Source of the DNA: Cystobacter ferrugineus | GTDB lineage: Bacteria; Myxococcota; Myxococcia; Myxococcales; Myxococcaceae | Reading direction: 5' to 3' | Assembly: GCF_001887355.1 (NCBI RefSeq) | Contig: NZ_MPIN01000001.1 | Location: 62,001-126,000 of the forward strand | DNA length: 64,000 bases | Part shown: one piece after another, positions 26,936 through 47,634 of the stretch | How the letters are laid out: each line of letters begins with the position of its first letter | How positions within the stretch are numbered: the first letter of the stretch is position 1 | Position numbers and translations under genes: made by a program | The notes under the pieces: model-generated | What the model was told of the DNA's origin: nothing | What the model saw: only the letters and a program-made list of their open reading frames with translations | The model's database searches: none

Positions 26936-27051
26936 GAGGGCCACTGCTCCGACGCACGAACCCATGGACACCCGAGCTGCCCGTTGATTGATTAGAGGGG
27001 AAGAAACGTCGCCCGCCGCGACGTCCACCTCCTTTCCCCTGGAGTCCGCCC

Positions 27052-28158
27052 ATGTCCAAGTCCGTCCTGGAAGCAGATGTCGCCATCGTGGGGGCGGGGC
27101 CCGCCGGGACGGCCGCCGCCCTGCACCTGGGCCAGCTCGGGGTGAAGCGGGTGGTGCTCGTGGACCGGGCGGACTTCCCTCGGGACAAGACCTGCGGCAG
27201 CGGGGTGAGCCCCAAGGGGATTGGTTGTCTGAAGACGCTGGGGGTCTGGGACGCGGTGGAGCCGCACTCCTACTGGATCAAGGGCCTCCGGCTGACCACC
27301 CGGGGCAACGAGACGATGTTCCTGTCGGGAGGCGACGCCGCCGCCGCCATCATCTGCAACCGCCGCACGCTCGATGAGATCCTCCTGCGCCGCGCCCAGT
27401 CGCTCGGGGTGGAGTTCGTCCCCAACTTCCTCGTGCGCTCGCTCATCGAGGAAGGCGGGCGGGTGGTGGGCTTCCAGGATGACGAGGGCCGCGAGGTGCG
27501 CGCGCGCTACACGGTGGTCGCCGACGGGGGGCACTCCAAGCTCGTTCCCGAGCGGGGCCCCAAGTCCATCCTCCAGGCCATCATGGGCTGGTGGGAGGGC
27601 GTCGACTTCACCCCGCACCACGTGGAGATGATCTTCGATCCCCGCGTGGCGCCCTGGTACGTCTGGCTCTTCCCGGAGAACGACACCCGGGTGAACATCG
27701 GCATCTGCTACCGGGACGACGCGCACCAGCACAACGCCCGCGCCCTGTTCCAGCAGATCCTCGACAGCCACTTCGCCCCCCGCCTGCGCGGCGCGCGGCA
27801 GATCGGCGGCTGGAAGGGCCACCCCATCCTCTACTCGTACACCATCGAGAAGCTGCACTCGCCCGGGCGCATCGTGATTGGCGAGGCGGGACGCATGGTG
27901 CATCCGGCCACCGGCGAGGGCATCTACCAGGGCATGCGCTCGGGCATCCTGGCGGCCGAGGCCCTGCGCGACGTGCTCACCGACGCGAGCACCGAGGCAC
28001 GCGCCTTCGAGCGCTATGAGTCGCGCTGCCGCCTCGCGTACACCGCGTCCTTCGCGGCGACCCGGCTGCTGCAACCCCTCATCGACTCGCCCGTGCTCGA
28101 TACCGTGGCGAGGGTGCTGCCCAAGTCCTTGCGGAACCGGGTGGCGGCCGCGCCGTAG
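27052..28158 (+). CDS. Geranylgeranyl-reductase-type FAD oxidoreductase
   Basis: 368 residues. The N-terminal FAD fold is GAGPAGTAAALHL, with the family's DKTCGSGVSPKG segment (R..CG.G) and the second FAD motif GEAGRMVHPATGEGIYQGM. Such flavoproteins reduce isoprenoid double bonds (geranylgeranyl lipids, menaquinone tail) or hydroxylate aromatic compounds. A polyprenyl synthase lies 22 kb away but is not linked. It stands as its own transcription unit with a GGAG site upstream. Confidence 0.8.
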   Translation: MSKSVLEADVAIVGAGPAGTAAALHLGQLGVKRVVLVDRADFPRDKTCGSGVSPKGIGCLKTLGVWDAVEPHSYWIKGLRLTTRGNETMFLSGGDAAAAIICNRRTLDEILLRRAQSLGVEFVPNFLVRSLIEEGGRVVGFQDDEGREVRARYTVVADGGHSKLVPERGPKSILQAIMGWWEGVDFTPHHVEMIFDPRVAPWYVWLFPENDTRVNIGICYRDDAHQHNARALFQQILDSHFAPRLRGARQIGGWKGHPILYSYTIEKLHSPGRIVIGEAGRMVHPATGEGIYQGMRSGILAAEALRDVLTDASTEARAFERYESRCRLAYTASFAATRLLQPLIDSPVLDTVARVLPKSLRNRVAAAP

Positions 28159-41945: not shown

Positions 41946-41994
41946 AGTGCCTTCGGGGCTCCCGCGCGTCACGCCGCGCGGGGCCCGAGCGCCG

Positions 41995-42903
41995 ATGAAA
42001 CCCTTCCTCACCGTCATCGCCGGCCCCACCGCCTCGGGGAAGACCGCGCTCGCCGTGGAACTCGCCCTGCGGCACGGGGGGGAGATCGTCGGCGCGGACT
42101 CGCAGCAGGTGTACCGCGAGTTCGACATCGGCACCGCGAAGCCCTCGGCCGAGGAGCTCGCCGCGGTGCCCCATCACCTCGTCTCCGTGGTGGAGCCGCT
42201 CGAGCCCTTCTCCGCCGCCGAGTACCAGCGCCGGGCGGACGCGGCCATCGCGGATGTTGTTTCCCGGGGGCGGCGGGTGTTCGTCGTGGGCGGCACGGGC
42301 ATGTACCTGCGGATTCTGCTGCATGGGCTCGTGGAGGCGCCCGGCGCGGATCCCCGGTTGCGCGCCGAGCTGGAGGCGCTCGCCGCCGCCGAGGGCCGTG
42401 AAGCCGTGCACCGGCAGCTCGCGCAGGTGGATCCGGAGACGGCCGCGAAGCTGCCTCCCCAGGATCTGGTGCGCGTCATCCGGGCGTTGGAGATCCACCG
42501 CCAGACGGGCCGGACCGCCTCCGAGTTCCGCCGGGAGCATGCCTTCGCCGCGAGCCGCTATCCCTTCCGGATGTACGTGCTCTCCCCGCCGCGCGAGGCG
42601 CTGTACGAGGCCATCGACCGGCGCACCGCGGCGCTGTTCGAGCGGGGCCTGGTGGAGGAGGTGCGAGGGCTCCTCGCCCGGGGGTATGCCGAGGCGGCGC
42701 CCATGCGCAGCGTGGGCTACGCCCAGGCGAAGGCGGTGGTGGAGGGCCAGCTCTCGCTCGAGCAGGCGCGCGAGCTGGTGGCCCAGGAGACGCGCCGCTA
42801 CGCCAAGCGGCAGCTCACGTGGTTCCGCAAGGAGCCCGGGGCGCTCTTCGTGGAGCCGCCCTATGACGCGGTGAGGGCCGCCCAGGCGCCTCAGGAGGCG
42901 TAG
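41995..42903 (+). CDS. miaA: tRNA dimethylallyltransferase
   Basis: 302 residues from the ATG at 41995 (MKPFLTVIAGPTASGKT). P-loop GPTASGKT, DSQQVYREFDIGTAKP and the GGTGMYLR strand are diagnostic. It adds a dimethylallyl group to A37 of tRNAs reading UNN codons, including the tRNA-Leu(CAA) in this window. A GTG 48 bp upstream is an alternative start. It overlaps the convergent flavoprotein-receiver gene by 13 bp. Confidence 0.93.
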   Translation: MKPFLTVIAGPTASGKTALAVELALRHGGEIVGADSQQVYREFDIGTAKPSAEELAAVPHHLVSVVEPLEPFSAAEYQRRADAAIADVVSRGRRVFVVGGTGMYLRILLHGLVEAPGADPRLRAELEALAAAEGREAVHRQLAQVDPETAAKLPPQDLVRVIRALEIHRQTGRTASEFRREHAFAASRYPFRMYVLSPPREALYEAIDRRTAALFERGLVEEVRGLLARGYAEAAPMRSVGYAQAKAVVEGQLSLEQARELVAQETRRYAKRQLTWFRKEPGALFVEPPYDAVRAAQAPQEA

Positions 42904-44639
42904 CGCCCCGTCTCCCCGGCCGCGTCGAGCGGCGCCTCGGAGGGAGCGGAGGAGGTGGTGGGCACCACGCCCATGAGCTGGCGCAGCAGGCGCTCGGGAT
43001 CCACGGGCTTGGGCAGGAAGGCCTCGGCGCCGGCGTCGAGCGCGCGCTGGCGGATGTGGGGCCGGTTCATCCCGCTCATCACCACCACGCGCGTGTCCCG
43101 CGTGAGCGGGTGCTGCTTGAGGCCCTCGCACAGCCGCAGCCCGTCCACCCAGTGCAGCACCACGTCCAGGAGGATGGCGGTGGGAGGGCGCCTGGCCACC
43201 GCGCAGAACAGGGCCAGCTCGTCGGCGAAGGCCACCACGTGGGCCCCCGTGGACTCGAGCAGTTGCGTCATGGCCTCGCGCTGATCCGGATCGTCGTCCA
43301 CGATGTAGTAGAGGTCCCGCTCCATCGTGGGAATCGTCGTGGGCAGGGGCTCCACGGCGGTGCGCACCCAGGAGGACATCGTCTCGCGGATGCCCGCCCA
43401 GCGCGCCACGGACAGCAGCACCTGGGGCGAGGGAGCGGGAAGACCCAGCACACCCGAGCCCACGGTGCCCGCCGCGGCGACGCGGTGACGGGCGGTGATG
43501 AAGGCCTGGGGCGCGCGGCGTCCGGCGCGGCGCAACCAGGTCACGGCGCGCGCGCCCGCGGCCGCGTCATCCAGCAGATCCGCCAGGCCATCGCGCACGT
43601 ACCGGCGCTCCAGGGCCGGGGCCTCCAGGCCCGCGTCCAGCAGGGCCACGGCGGCGCGGCTGCACGAGGCGAGGGTGTCCGACACGCCCACCTGGAGCGG
43701 GTGGCCGAACGCCGCCGCGCCCACCACGAGCTGTCCGGGGGCCACGAGCGAGCGGCCCGGCCCGTAGGGCAGGCGAGTGGTTTCCAGGGCGAGCAGCTCG
43801 AAGCCCTCCTCCACGAGCCCGTCGCGCGCCGCCATCATCAGGGCCTGACACAGGTCCGCCGGCGTCACCGCGGGGCCATAGGCGAGCGCGTACACCGAGT
43901 GGGCGCCCGGCAGGAGCACGAGCCCATCCACGGAGGGCAGGGGAGACATCCACAGCCGGGCGAGCGGTGGGGGACCCATGCGGGGCGTGGGCAGCCGCAG
44001 GCGCGCCTGGACGGCGGCCACGGAGGGAGCGGGCTGGAAGCCTGGGAAGAAGGAGTCGCCGAGGGACGCGCCCGCGCCCGTGGCGAGGGCCACCGCGTGG
44101 AAGCGCTCGCCACTGCCCTGGGCACGCACCACGAGGGGACCATTCTTGCGCACCACCGCGGGGGCATCCGCCGCACAAGGCTGGTGCTCCACGCGCTCCA
44201 CGCGCCGGGACACGAAGCGAGCGCCCTGGGAGGTGGCCGCGCCCGCGAGTGCCTCGCGTACCAGCGACAGCCCGCCCTGGCCCTGCGGCCACCCATCCAC
44301 CACCCACAGGCCACCGGCCGAGGCGGGCATCACCTCGCGCTGGCCATGGGAGAGCAGCTCCACGCCGCGCAATTCATGGGCGCGCCACTCCTGGGGCACG
44401 CGGGCGCCGAGCGCGGCCAGGCGCGAGCGGCACTCGGGCGTGAGGATGGCGGGGGGGGCGATGGCGTCCGGGTCTCCGCTCTCGTACACGCGCACGTCGA
44501 GCGCGCACCCGCGGGCCCGTCCGTTGAAGATCAGCGATGCGGCGAGTCCCGCCCCGGCGATCCCCCCGCCGACGATGGCCACCCGTGATCCGCTCGCCAG
44601 CCTGCTGCCGCTCATCCGCGCCCTTGCTCCACCGTCCAT
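42891..44639 (-). CDS. Flavin-dependent oxidoreductase fused to a receiver domain
   Basis: 582 residues. Residues 18-430 are an FAD/NAD(P)-binding fold: GGGIAGAG (24-31), central beta-rich substrate region, then a late segment (VAPGQLVVGAAAFGHPLQVG) at the position of the second FAD motif of aromatic hydroxylase/halogenase-type flavoproteins. Residues 439-555 form a complete CheY-like receiver: acidic pocket DDD at 448-450, phospho-acceptor Asp492, Ser522 and Lys544. No stop or frameshift separates them. AGAGG precedes the ATG. The next gene upstream on the strand is a receiver-GGDEF cyclase. The fusion suggests phosphorylation or docking controls a redox enzyme. Confidence 0.8.
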   Translation of the reverse strand: MDGGARARMSGSRLASGSRVAIVGGGIAGAGLAASLIFNGRARGCALDVRVYESGDPDAIAPPAILTPECRSRLAALGARVPQEWRAHELRGVELLSHGQREVMPASAGGLWVVDGWPQGQGGLSLVREALAGAATSQGARFVSRRVERVEHQPCAADAPAVVRKNGPLVVRAQGSGERFHAVALATGAGASLGDSFFPGFQPAPSVAAVQARLRLPTPRMGPPPLARLWMSPLPSVDGLVLLPGAHSVYALAYGPAVTPADLCQALMMAARDGLVEEGFELLALETTRLPYGPGRSLVAPGQLVVGAAAFGHPLQVGVSDTLASCSRAAVALLDAGLEAPALERRYVRDGLADLLDDAAAGARAVTWLRRAGRRAPQAFITARHRVAAAGTVGSGVLGLPAPSPQVLLSVARWAGIRETMSSWVRTAVEPLPTTIPTMERDLYYIVDDDPDQREAMTQLLESTGAHVVAFADELALFCAVARRPPTAILLDVVLHWVDGLRLCEGLKQHPLTRDTRVVVMSGMNRPHIRQRALDAGAEAFLPKPVDPERLLRQLMGVVPTTSSAPSEAPLDAAGETGRYAS

Positions 44640-44673: not shown

Positions 44674-45642
44674 CTAGTGCCGTTGTGCTGCCTTGGGGGA
44701 CGCCAGGTCCGAGGCGCCGTACACCACCACGCGATCCCGGCCCTCGCGCTTGGCCTCGTAGAGCGCCGCGTCCGCGGCCCTGAGCAACTCGTCGGTGCAC
44801 GCGCGCGGCTGGGCGGGGGAGTGATCCGCGATGCCCACGCTCACGCTCAGCCCGAAGGGGGCGGGCCGCCCGTCGCTGCGCGTCACCTTCACCGTGCGCA
44901 GGCCCGCGCGGATGCGCTCGGCGAGCACCGCCGCCTCGGCGGCCGTCTGGTGGGGCAAGAGCGCCACGAACTCATCGCCACCGAAGCGCGCCGCGAAGTC
45001 CACCTCGCGCAGGTTGGTGCGCAGGAGGTTGGCGAGCGCCAGGATGGCGCGGTTGCCCACGTCATGGCCCATGCCGTCGTTGATGGCCTTGAGGTGATCC
45101 AAGTCGATGACCACCACCGACATCGGGTAGTCGTAGCGGCTCGAGCGCTTGAACTCCTCCTCCAGCCGCATGGACAGCGCCCGGAAGTTGGCCAGGCCCG
45201 TGAGCGCGTCCGTCTGGGCCATGGCCTGCAGCCGCTGCTGCTGCTCGCTCTGGCGCAGCGCCCGGTTGATGCGGGCCATCAACTCGCGCGCGCTCGCCGG
45301 CTTGTGCACGAAGTCCACCGCGCCCAGCTCCAGGCAGCGCTCGAGCGTGGCCTCGTCCGAGTCTCCGGTGAGGAAGATGACGGGCACGGACTCGGTGGCG
45401 CGGTCGTGCTGGAGCGACTCGAGCACGGCCAGGCCGTCCTCGCCGCTCTCCAGGAAGCGATCCAGGAGGATGAGATCCGGGTGCCGCTCCCGGGCGAGCT
45501 CCACTCCGGACTGGCCGTCACTGGCGCCCAGGACGCGGTAGCGGGCCGCGAGCAACTCCATCAGGCTGTCGCGGGTGCCCGCATCATCCTCCACGACCAG
45601 GATCAGGGGCGTCTCTCCGCGTCGGTCATGCTGCCGCTGCAT
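44674..45642 (-). CDS. Receiver-GGDEF diguanylate cyclase (PleD-like)
   Basis: 322 residues from the ATG at 45642; the frame is open up to 45888 but the extra residues look non-coding. Receiver domain: DD at 19-20, phospho-acceptor Asp61, Lys114. GGDEF domain: active site RFGGDEF (221-225) is intact, and the inhibitory site RxxD (Arg212-Asp215) sits at the canonical five-residue distance. It should make c-di-GMP with product feedback. The C-terminus ends cleanly after the GGDEF fold. It is co-directional with the flavoprotein-receiver gene. Confidence 0.9.
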   Translation of the reverse strand: MQRQHDRRGETPLILVVEDDAGTRDSLMELLAARYRVLGASDGQSGVELARERHPDLILLDRFLESGEDGLAVLESLQHDRATESVPVIFLTGDSDEATLERCLELGAVDFVHKPASARELMARINRALRQSEQQQRLQAMAQTDALTGLANFRALSMRLEEEFKRSSRYDYPMSVVVIDLDHLKAINDGMGHDVGNRAILALANLLRTNLREVDFAARFGGDEFVALLPHQTAAEAAVLAERIRAGLRTVKVTRSDGRPAPFGLSVSVGIADHSPAQPRACTDELLRAADAALYEAKREGRDRVVVYGASDLASPKAAQRH

Positions 45643-45970
45643 GCTCTGCTCCGCTTCCTGCGCCTGGCCCTGGAATCCGGAGTGCGAGTCCCGAGCGCAC
45701 CGCTCGGAGGCCTCGCCTGCCCGCTCTTCCTCCGCCGCCCTGCCCATGTCCTCCATCACCCAAGACCCCCGGCCGCCTGCTGATCCTCGGGGATTTCCTT
45801 CTCCGAGGATGGAGAACCCAGGAGCAAGAGACGTGCCGTGGGAGCGTCCCGATTCCGGACCGTGATTCCGGGGGGTTGCGATCAGCACGTGGGCCGCCCG
45901 GCGGCGGGATAGGCAAGAGTTGCAGCATTCCCCGGAATGCGTTCCGGTAGGAATTCCCGGCAGGGAGGGG
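45643..45970. other. Non-coding stretch with a hairpin
   Basis: Upstream region of the cyclase gene and downstream region of the TPR-type membrane gene. A perfect inverted repeat GCATTCC-CC-GGAATGC lies at 45925-45940, about 31 bp past the stop of the 45971-46717 gene, and may end its transcript, although no T-tract follows. The rest has no supported feature; an in-frame 5' extension of the cyclase occupies 45643-45888. Confidence 0.4.
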
Positions 45971-46717
45971 TCAGCGTCGGGGATTGAACTGCACGCGCCG
46001 GCCCCCGCCGCCCCCCATGATTTGAGGGGGAGGGGTTTCCAGGCCGAACTGCCACCACATGGGCTCGTAGGGCTTCATCTTCAATTTCTTGTCGTTCTGG
46101 AGAGCCGACAAGCTGCCCTTGAGCTTTTCATCGGAGGGGTTGGCCTCGACCGCCCGCCCGAGCACCTTGAGAGCGCCTTCCTTGTCCTTGTTCTGCAGGA
46201 GGCACCAGGCGTAGACGGCCCACACCACGGACTCCTTCTTGCCGGAGACCACCGCGGCCTCGAAGGACTTCTTCATGGCGGCGGCATCCTTCTTCTGGAA
46301 GAAGAGGGCGCCCTCCATGGCCTTGGCCAGGTAGTTGCGCGAGCTGGAGCGGGCGAAGTGCGTCTGGGCGCCGTCCAGGTCCTTCGACATGTACTTCAAC
46401 ATTCCAATCTGGGAGTGCACCTCCGCGCCCACGAGGAACTGCCACTTGTCGTAGACGAGGCCGGACTCGAGCATCTTGACGGCCCGCTCGATGCGCGCCT
46501 GGGCTTCCTTCTGGCTGGTGGGCTGCCCCTGGAGCTCCTTCTGCACGGCGGTCATGATGGCCTGGAGCCTCTGCCCGATGCGGCGACCGAGCCAGATGTA
46601 GGTGCCCACGAAGGCGAGGGTGCCCGGGACGAGGGCGGCCCAGACGTTGAAGCCGGCGAACTTGATACCCAAGGTGATGGCGACGCCTACACCCAGGGCG
46701 ATGAGGAGGTTGTACAT
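45971..46717 (-). CDS. Membrane-anchored TPR-like protein
   Basis: 248 residues. Two N-terminal hydrophobic helices (LLIALGVGVAITLGIKFAG and ALVPGTLAFVGTYIWLG) are followed by a cytosolic or periplasmic helical-repeat region with TPR spacing (GMLKYMSKDLDGAQTHFARS; ALFFQKKDAAAMKKSFEAAV; WCLLQNKDKEGALKVLGRAV). The tail is Gly/Arg rich. It is probably a scaffold; no partner is evident. Confidence 0.7.
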   Translation of the reverse strand: MYNLLIALGVGVAITLGIKFAGFNVWAALVPGTLAFVGTYIWLGRRIGQRLQAIMTAVQKELQGQPTSQKEAQARIERAVKMLESGLVYDKWQFLVGAEVHSQIGMLKYMSKDLDGAQTHFARSSSRNYLAKAMEGALFFQKKDAAAMKKSFEAAVVSGKKESVVWAVYAWCLLQNKDKEGALKVLGRAVEANPSDEKLKGSLSALQNDKKLKMKPYEPMWWQFGLETPPPQIMGGGGGRRVQFNPRR

Positions 46718-46980: not shown

Positions 46981-47634
46981 ATGAAGGTGCTGCTGGTGGA
47001 GGATGACGCCGGTCTGCGCGAGGGGATGGCGGAGCTCATCGCCGAGCAGACGCCCGTGCGCGAGGCGGGCAGCGTGGCCGAGGCCCTGCGGGTGCTCCAG
47101 GAGGAGTCCTTCGCCCTGGTCCTCACGGATCTGCGCATCGGCGACAGTGGAGGCGGCGGGCGCATCATCCTCGAGGCGGCGCGCAAGCGGCTGCAACCGG
47201 TGGCCATCGTCAGCGCCTCGTCCGCCGAGGAGGTGGTGCGGGTGCTGCGGCCCCACGAGCCGGACGCGGTGCTCAGCAAGCCCTTCCAGATCGAGGACAT
47301 GATGCTCCTGGTGGAGCGCTTCGTGCGGTTGCGGCGCGACGTGGAGCGCCTGGCCGCGGGGAGCGTGCCGCCCGAGGACTCCTGGACGACGGAGCCCACC
47401 ACGGGACTGCGGCTGTCGCAGCGGCCGGATGGCAGTCTGTGGATGCGCCTGGCGCCGGGAGCCAGCCACCGCCCACCGGTGAGCCAGGGCCGCGCGGCCC
47501 TGGTGGTGGAGGGCTCGCTCGAGGTGGACGGCGAGAGGCGCGGGCGCGATCACTACTTCTATCTGGCGGCCGGACCGCGCGAGCTGCGCTCCCATGAGGG
47601 GTGCCTGGCCGTCTCGCTCCCCCTGGACGCGTGA
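46981..47634 (+). CDS. Response regulator with C-terminal cupin-like domain
   Basis: 217 residues. Receiver residues 1-118: acidic Asp8/Asp9, phospho-acceptor Asp50 and Lys100. A linker (about 120-140) leads to a small beta-rich domain (TGLRLSQRPDGSLWMRLAPG, then EGSLEVDGERRGRDHYFYL) that reads like a single cupin or ChrR-type barrel. No DNA-binding helix is visible. The stop overlaps the GTG of the rRNA methyltransferase, so they are translationally coupled. The tRNA-Leu gene lies 85 bp upstream. Confidence 0.75.
   Translation: MKVLLVEDDAGLREGMAELIAEQTPVREAGSVAEALRVLQEESFALVLTDLRIGDSGGGGRIILEAARKRLQPVAIVSASSAEEVVRVLRPHEPDAVLSKPFQIEDMMLLVERFVRLRRDVERLAAGSVPPEDSWTTEPTTGLRLSQRPDGSLWMRLAPGASHRPPVSQGRAALVVEGSLEVDGERRGRDHYFYLAAGPRELRSHEGCLAVSLPLDA

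Follow-up and report, generated by a model that had tools for sequence, protein, structure and literature searches.

A receiver fused to a predicted PHBH-type fold is encoded beside the diguanylate cyclase gene dmxB in Cystobacter ferrugineus

A gene of Cystobacter ferrugineus that joins a flavoprotein-like domain to a two-component receiver, and lies next to a gene for a receiver–GGDEF protein, raises the question of whether its product is a flavin enzyme switched by phosphorylation or a regulator built on the fold of one, and whether its neighbour is also its partner. We addressed this computationally in a window of 64,000 nucleotides (the whole stretch analysed; contig NZ_MPIN01000001.1, positions 62,001 to 126,000, forward strand). 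The gene occupies positions 42891–44639 on the minus strand, starts with ATG and runs as a single frame of 582 codons with no internal stops, encoding a Rossmann-like N-terminal part followed by a C-terminal receiver. The first-pass annotation had read it as an in-frame fusion of an FAD oxidoreductase to a CheY-like receiver; it had the coordinates, the GGGIAG motif (residues 24–29) and the number of the phospho-acceptor, Asp492, correct, and had named a sequencing error as one outcome that could undo its reading.

The distribution of the gene confirms the fusion. When 59 genomes, that of Cystobacter ferrugineus among them, were searched with residues 1–440, 27 matched, and all 26 full-length homologs recovered carry the receiver; in the 27th genome (G036) the gene is split across two contigs. 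Because the fused state is conserved in every full-length homolog, a frame-shift or assembly error that joined two genes is refuted at the sequence level; nothing was found in favour of such an artefact and we give it essentially no weight. Two separate proteins in vivo instead of one fusion product are also unlikely. Among loci L009–L086, where certain genomes are represented more than once, the N-terminal domain is present in 78 ORFs, of which 76 contain the receiver as well and two (L031 and L084) stop where the stretch itself stops. A profile of the N-terminal part matched 79 of the 195 genomes returned by the phylum search (fusion threshold E 1e-8), with one match per genome except in two genomes where the gene is split over contigs, and every fusion match among those listed came from the order to which Cystobacter ferrugineus belongs. 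Scanning genome contigs with two short patterns gave at least 20 loci, all of them myxobacterial by title among the matches listed. No sign of a mobile origin was seen in searches for plasmid matches at E 1e-5 or for PHROGs matches at 0.01. When the ORFs of 60 flavoprotein loci from the same genome, some of them overlapping, were scanned with a receiver model built from fusion-family receivers alone and hence narrow, one receiver was found, in a separate 203-aa ORF (L170).

The receiver spans about residues 442–556 (42972–43316, minus strand) and is matched by Pfam PF00072 over residues 446–554 of the 582-aa protein (E 2e-21), as are all 22 members of set A1. It has the phospho-acceptor Asp, the acidic pocket, the Ser/Thr and the Lys of a response regulator: D449, D450, D492, S522 and K544 are invariant in 26/26 full-length homologs, which bears out the earlier statement that all receiver residues are intact. 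The fusion gene is under purifying selection. By a simple count over six pairs, dN/dS was 0.04–0.17 for the receiver, 0.14–0.28 for the N-terminal part and 0.09–1.59 for the linker, so that constraint acts on the two domains, most strongly on the receiver, and the linker is relaxed.

The adjoining receiver–GGDEF gene, correctly placed beside the fusion by the first-pass annotation, is the ortholog of DmxB (44674–45888, minus strand; likely start ATG at 45642), with the RxxD motif REVD five residues ahead of GGDEF. It lies upstream of the fusion gene, 34 bp separating its stop from the fusion ATG. A Myxococcaceae survey counts DmxB as a core protein, going by the part of PMC7694542 available to us, and in Myxococcus xanthus DmxB produces the ∼20-fold rise in c-di-GMP that is required for development, according to the available portions of PMC4877007. 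The same sources lead to an ortholog of the fusion gene itself. In the sections of PMC8844925 accessible to us, MXAN_3734 is described as a 577-aa protein with a C-terminal receiver and a remainder without known domains, which forms a two-gene operon with dmxB. In M. xanthus AM003 (L076) the fusion gene encodes 577 aa from MMLGNR, matching that length, and the preceding DmxB, counted from its ATG, has D60, R210ESD and G219GDEF, the residues published for DmxB (PMC4877007, in the part seen). With its C-terminal receiver, similar length and position directly after dmxB, the Cystobacter ferrugineus fusion gene is the ortholog of MXAN_3734. As a separate matter, the idea that the fused receiver arose by copying that of DmxB was considered and is not supported, because the DmxB receiver is a weak match to it (E 1.2e-5, 29%) and a different receiver encoded in the genome ranks above it (3e-20, 36%).

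What, then, is the remainder of the protein? Residues 1–441, the N-terminal domain with the linker (43317–44639, minus strand), gave a single Pfam match, to PF01266 (DAO), with E 1.5e-4 and a score of 21.9 bits that is under the cut-off of 27.9; across the family, DAO was matched by 10/22 members at E up to 0.1, the best at E 1.7e-7. A single-sequence search with the fusion protein found no solved structure at E up to 1. The family profile gave 46 matches to solved structures, its flavoprotein matches being weak and led by the halogenase CmlS (3i3l, E 1.2e-4). When the profile was compared with that of nine PF01494 proteins from Cystobacter ferrugineus itself, the result was a probability of 96.2 and an E value, valid for that single comparison, of 2.3e-9 over 312 columns; the nine had been chosen by a pattern requiring a GD/GE motif and cannot serve as a test of that motif. 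AlphaFold models were weak (pLDDT 57.9 and pTM 0.44; pLDDT 50.9 and pTM 0.50). Foldseek with the N-terminal domain model nevertheless retrieved the halogenase BrvH (5.4e-10) and the geranylgeranyl reductase (GGR)-like 3oz2 (8.6e-10), with poor superpositions in the domain list (TM 0.27–0.41, rmsd 7–14 Å). VIA-align with the domain model placed GGR, UbiI, StyA and PHBH at Z 9.5–11.2 and rmsd 5.6–6.5, the GGR structure 4opu scoring Z 11.2 with an rmsd of 5.7 over 269 residues, and the titles of the 50 rows listed were all flavin-dependent enzymes or their relatives; the full-length VIA search was filled by receivers and is no test of the N-terminal part. Identity between the domain and superfamily members in the listed structure alignments was 11–18%. 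Because the models are of low confidence, the assignment leans on the profile results too. Taken together, sequence profiles and low-confidence models make it almost certain that this is a PHBH/geranylgeranyl-reductase/halogenase-type fold. The fold class is thus well supported, but the FAD pocket could not be inspected in models this weak and with superpositions this poor.

Whether a flavin sits in that pocket was judged from the motifs. Canonical GR2-type FAD binding uses the GxGxxG loop, an acidic residue at the end of strand beta-2 and the acid of the GD motif. The landmarks in the Cystobacter ferrugineus domain are GxGxxG at 24–29, E53 at the beta-2 end, R73, R272-D273-G274, and A308 at the GD-motif position. 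In the 26 homologs the GxGxxG loop is retained (G24 and G26 in 26/26, G29 in 25/26) and an acid, D or E, stands at the GD-motif position in only four, so that the first canonical element is present in the family and the last is mostly missing. The beta-2 end is acidic (E or D) in 13/26, and the PF01494-type arginine position holds Arg in 1/26. In the distant G039 protein, which lies outside the 26, the GD motif is absent by eye. Conserved elsewhere in the N-terminal part are the family-specific residues R73, R272 and G274, invariant in all 26, the central motif A186/G188 (25/26 and 23/26), H313 (22/26) and P314 (24/26).

For comparison we used a control family built from the GGR-like flavoprotein encoded at 26992–28155 (plus strand), which has GE in place of GD. 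This set mixes orthologs and paralogs at 29–100% identity; 16 of its 18 loci remained after L150 (another ORF) and L157 (no ORF) were dropped, and 15 were readable at the GD motif, L161 having no match there. By eye, the control proteins have the beta-2 acid in 16/16, the arginine in 16/16 and the GD-motif acid in 15/15. For the GGR-like gene itself, G002 and G003 are the only two of the 59 genomes with close orthologs, the next relatives being at 43–46% identity.

Because the GD-motif acid is mostly gone from the fusion family and half of its members have the beta-2 acid, whereas the control family keeps both, a working flavin oxidoreductase is doubtful. The motif pattern argues that FAD binding is probably lost or non-canonical in the N-terminal domain; some dinucleotide binding may persist given the retained GxGxxG, and the invariant R73 might replace lost cofactor contacts. 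Several observations weigh on the other side: the GxGxxG loop, A186/G188, H313 and P314 are largely kept, the Cystobacter ferrugineus protein has its own E53 together with R73, and there are the DAO matches. It is on the loop, the central motif, these matches and the fold itself that the main alternative draws, namely a true FAD-dependent oxidoreductase of the monooxygenase, reductase or halogenase type that is phospho-switched by the fused receiver. Set against the altered cofactor site, and against a conserved partner gene that encodes a diguanylate cyclase, we consider this alternative rather unlikely. The label 'FAD oxidoreductase' of the first-pass annotation was deduced from the fold, and FAD binding at the altered site is putative.

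The neighbourhood gave clues to function as well. At thresholds of E 1e-8 for the fusion and E 1e-70 for DmxB, coordinates place DmxB next to the fusion gene, upstream and on its strand, in 73 of the 79 genomes with the fusion, and with G013 and G045, where this was seen in fetched loci, the figure is at least 75/79; in G138 both genes lie at contig ends and adjacency cannot be judged. Three genomes of one family, G036, G043 and G048 (L091, L093 and L094), have the fusion gene without an adjoining DmxB. The pair was found in four families of the order (f1, f2, f6 and f9). In f9 (L087–L089) it persists, although the stretches fetched there showed neither miaA nor the TPR gene that flank it in Cystobacter ferrugineus. 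The first of these flanking genes, miaA (IPP transferase family; 41947–42903, plus strand), is convergent with the fusion gene and overlaps its end by 13 bp; the second, upstream of dmxB (45971–46717, minus strand), encodes a TPR protein with a hydrophobic N-terminus by eye and is conserved in many loci, not all.

Further genes recur around these loci. At 46981–47634 (plus strand) lies a gene for a receiver protein of 217 aa, without a Pfam match in its C-terminal part; most named relatives have this gene next to that for the TPR protein, at 46–71% identity. In L103–L113 and L115, from genomes without the fusion, and in L095, from G039, which has it, a receiver-bearing ORF lies on the opposite strand beside the DmxB-like gene; in L107, L110 and L095 this convergent neighbour is an NtrC-type activator by Pfam. 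In six genomes of one genus (g16; G018, G033 and G106–G109), fusion and DmxB were both unmatched at the thresholds used.

Another explanation for the pairing would be a shared promoter only, the fusion protein acting in a pathway unrelated to DmxB. MXAN_3734 is dispensable for development under the conditions tested, as far as the available parts of PMC8844925 and PMC4877007 go; 24/98 genomes with a DmxB-like gene have no fusion (a count that depends on thresholds of E 1e-70 for DmxB-like proteins and E 1e-8 for the fusion); and there are the three genomes in which the fusion lacks an adjoining DmxB. All three observations suit this explanation and also count against a dedicated partnership. 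It has difficulty, however, with the retention of the pair in families where identity between the fusion proteins is down to about 30% and other genes surround them, and we think it improbable. A functional link between the fusion protein and DmxB is, in our judgement, likely. The suggestion of a c-di-GMP connection in the first-pass annotation thus stands, resting on DmxB directly upstream in so many genomes; the flavin oxidoreductase that it proposed at the other end of that connection does not stand as worded. The histidine kinase that it suggested the two proteins might share is putative.

How the link would work is less certain. Our best explanation, to which we give about an even chance, is that the fusion protein is a response regulator of the DmxB c-di-GMP module whose pseudo-flavoprotein domain tunes DmxB or a downstream process. 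A kinase would phosphorylate D492 and so change the attached Rossmann fold or its contacts; the fold, which would no longer hold FAD canonically, would serve as a binding or regulatory domain, by the logic of Rab GDI; and the protein would then tune the activity, localisation or turnover of DmxB, or the process fed by its c-di-GMP. Any interaction with DmxB is putative, and direct action on it is possible but less likely than not. The domain could instead be an input, sensing FAD, NAD(P) or another nucleotide, setting the receiver state or the choice of partner, and so relaying metabolic or redox cues to DmxB and its module. A kept GxGxxG loop among otherwise variable flavin contacts and the operon with dmxB (PMC8844925, in the part available) would fit such a sensor. 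Yet DmxB D60N is functional in M. xanthus (PMC4877007, in its available sections), so that phosphorylation of the DmxB receiver, and with it phosphotransfer to DmxB, is not essential; this weakens any scheme that needs that step, and we regard the input role as quite unlikely. Our reading is that the fusion protein works with DmxB as a pseudo-flavoprotein, or a protein that binds flavin weakly, under the control of phosphorylation.

Among known systems, the PHBH/GGR/flavin-dependent halogenase superfamily (3oz2, 4opu, CmlS 3i3l) has the fold and the GxGxxG loop in common with the fusion protein, which differs in having mostly lost the GD-motif acid, in having the beta-2 acid in half its members and in its attached receiver. 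Rab GDI and REP have a flavoprotein-like fold that has lost FAD and binds protein. The likeness lies in this idea of an FAD-less, flavoprotein-like protein binder; these proteins are eukaryotic and have no receiver. A prokaryotic counterpart of Rab GDI in c-di-GMP signalling would go further: here a domain of PHBH fold, without its FAD but with its nucleotide loop, would give a receiver the output (or input) that controls a dedicated diguanylate cyclase. We hold this to be unlikely. Fusions of a response regulator with thioredoxin reductase exist as an NCBI protein name, and combine receiver and flavoprotein likewise, with a different flavoprotein family; no paper containing the two phrases of that name together came up in our literature search. 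The first-pass annotation had called the architecture one not known to it. The combination of a receiver with a PHBH-fold partner is new, the thioredoxin reductase name softening the claim for receiver–flavoprotein fusions at large; the gene itself is not new. It agrees with MXAN_3734 in length, receiver and operon, and what is added is a PHBH-type fold for the part of this family described as domain-less in the accessible text of PMC8844925. We found no assignment of a flavin fold to MXAN_3734 in a literature search that covered few subscription journals.

In conclusion, these data add a PHBH-type fold to the kinds of domain that partner receivers, in a protein whose intact receiver and unusual fold are kept beside DmxB in four families. 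As the Asp of DmxB's own receiver is dispensable (PMC4877007, in the part available), the co-transcribed fusion protein is a testable candidate for tuning DmxB after its synthesis.
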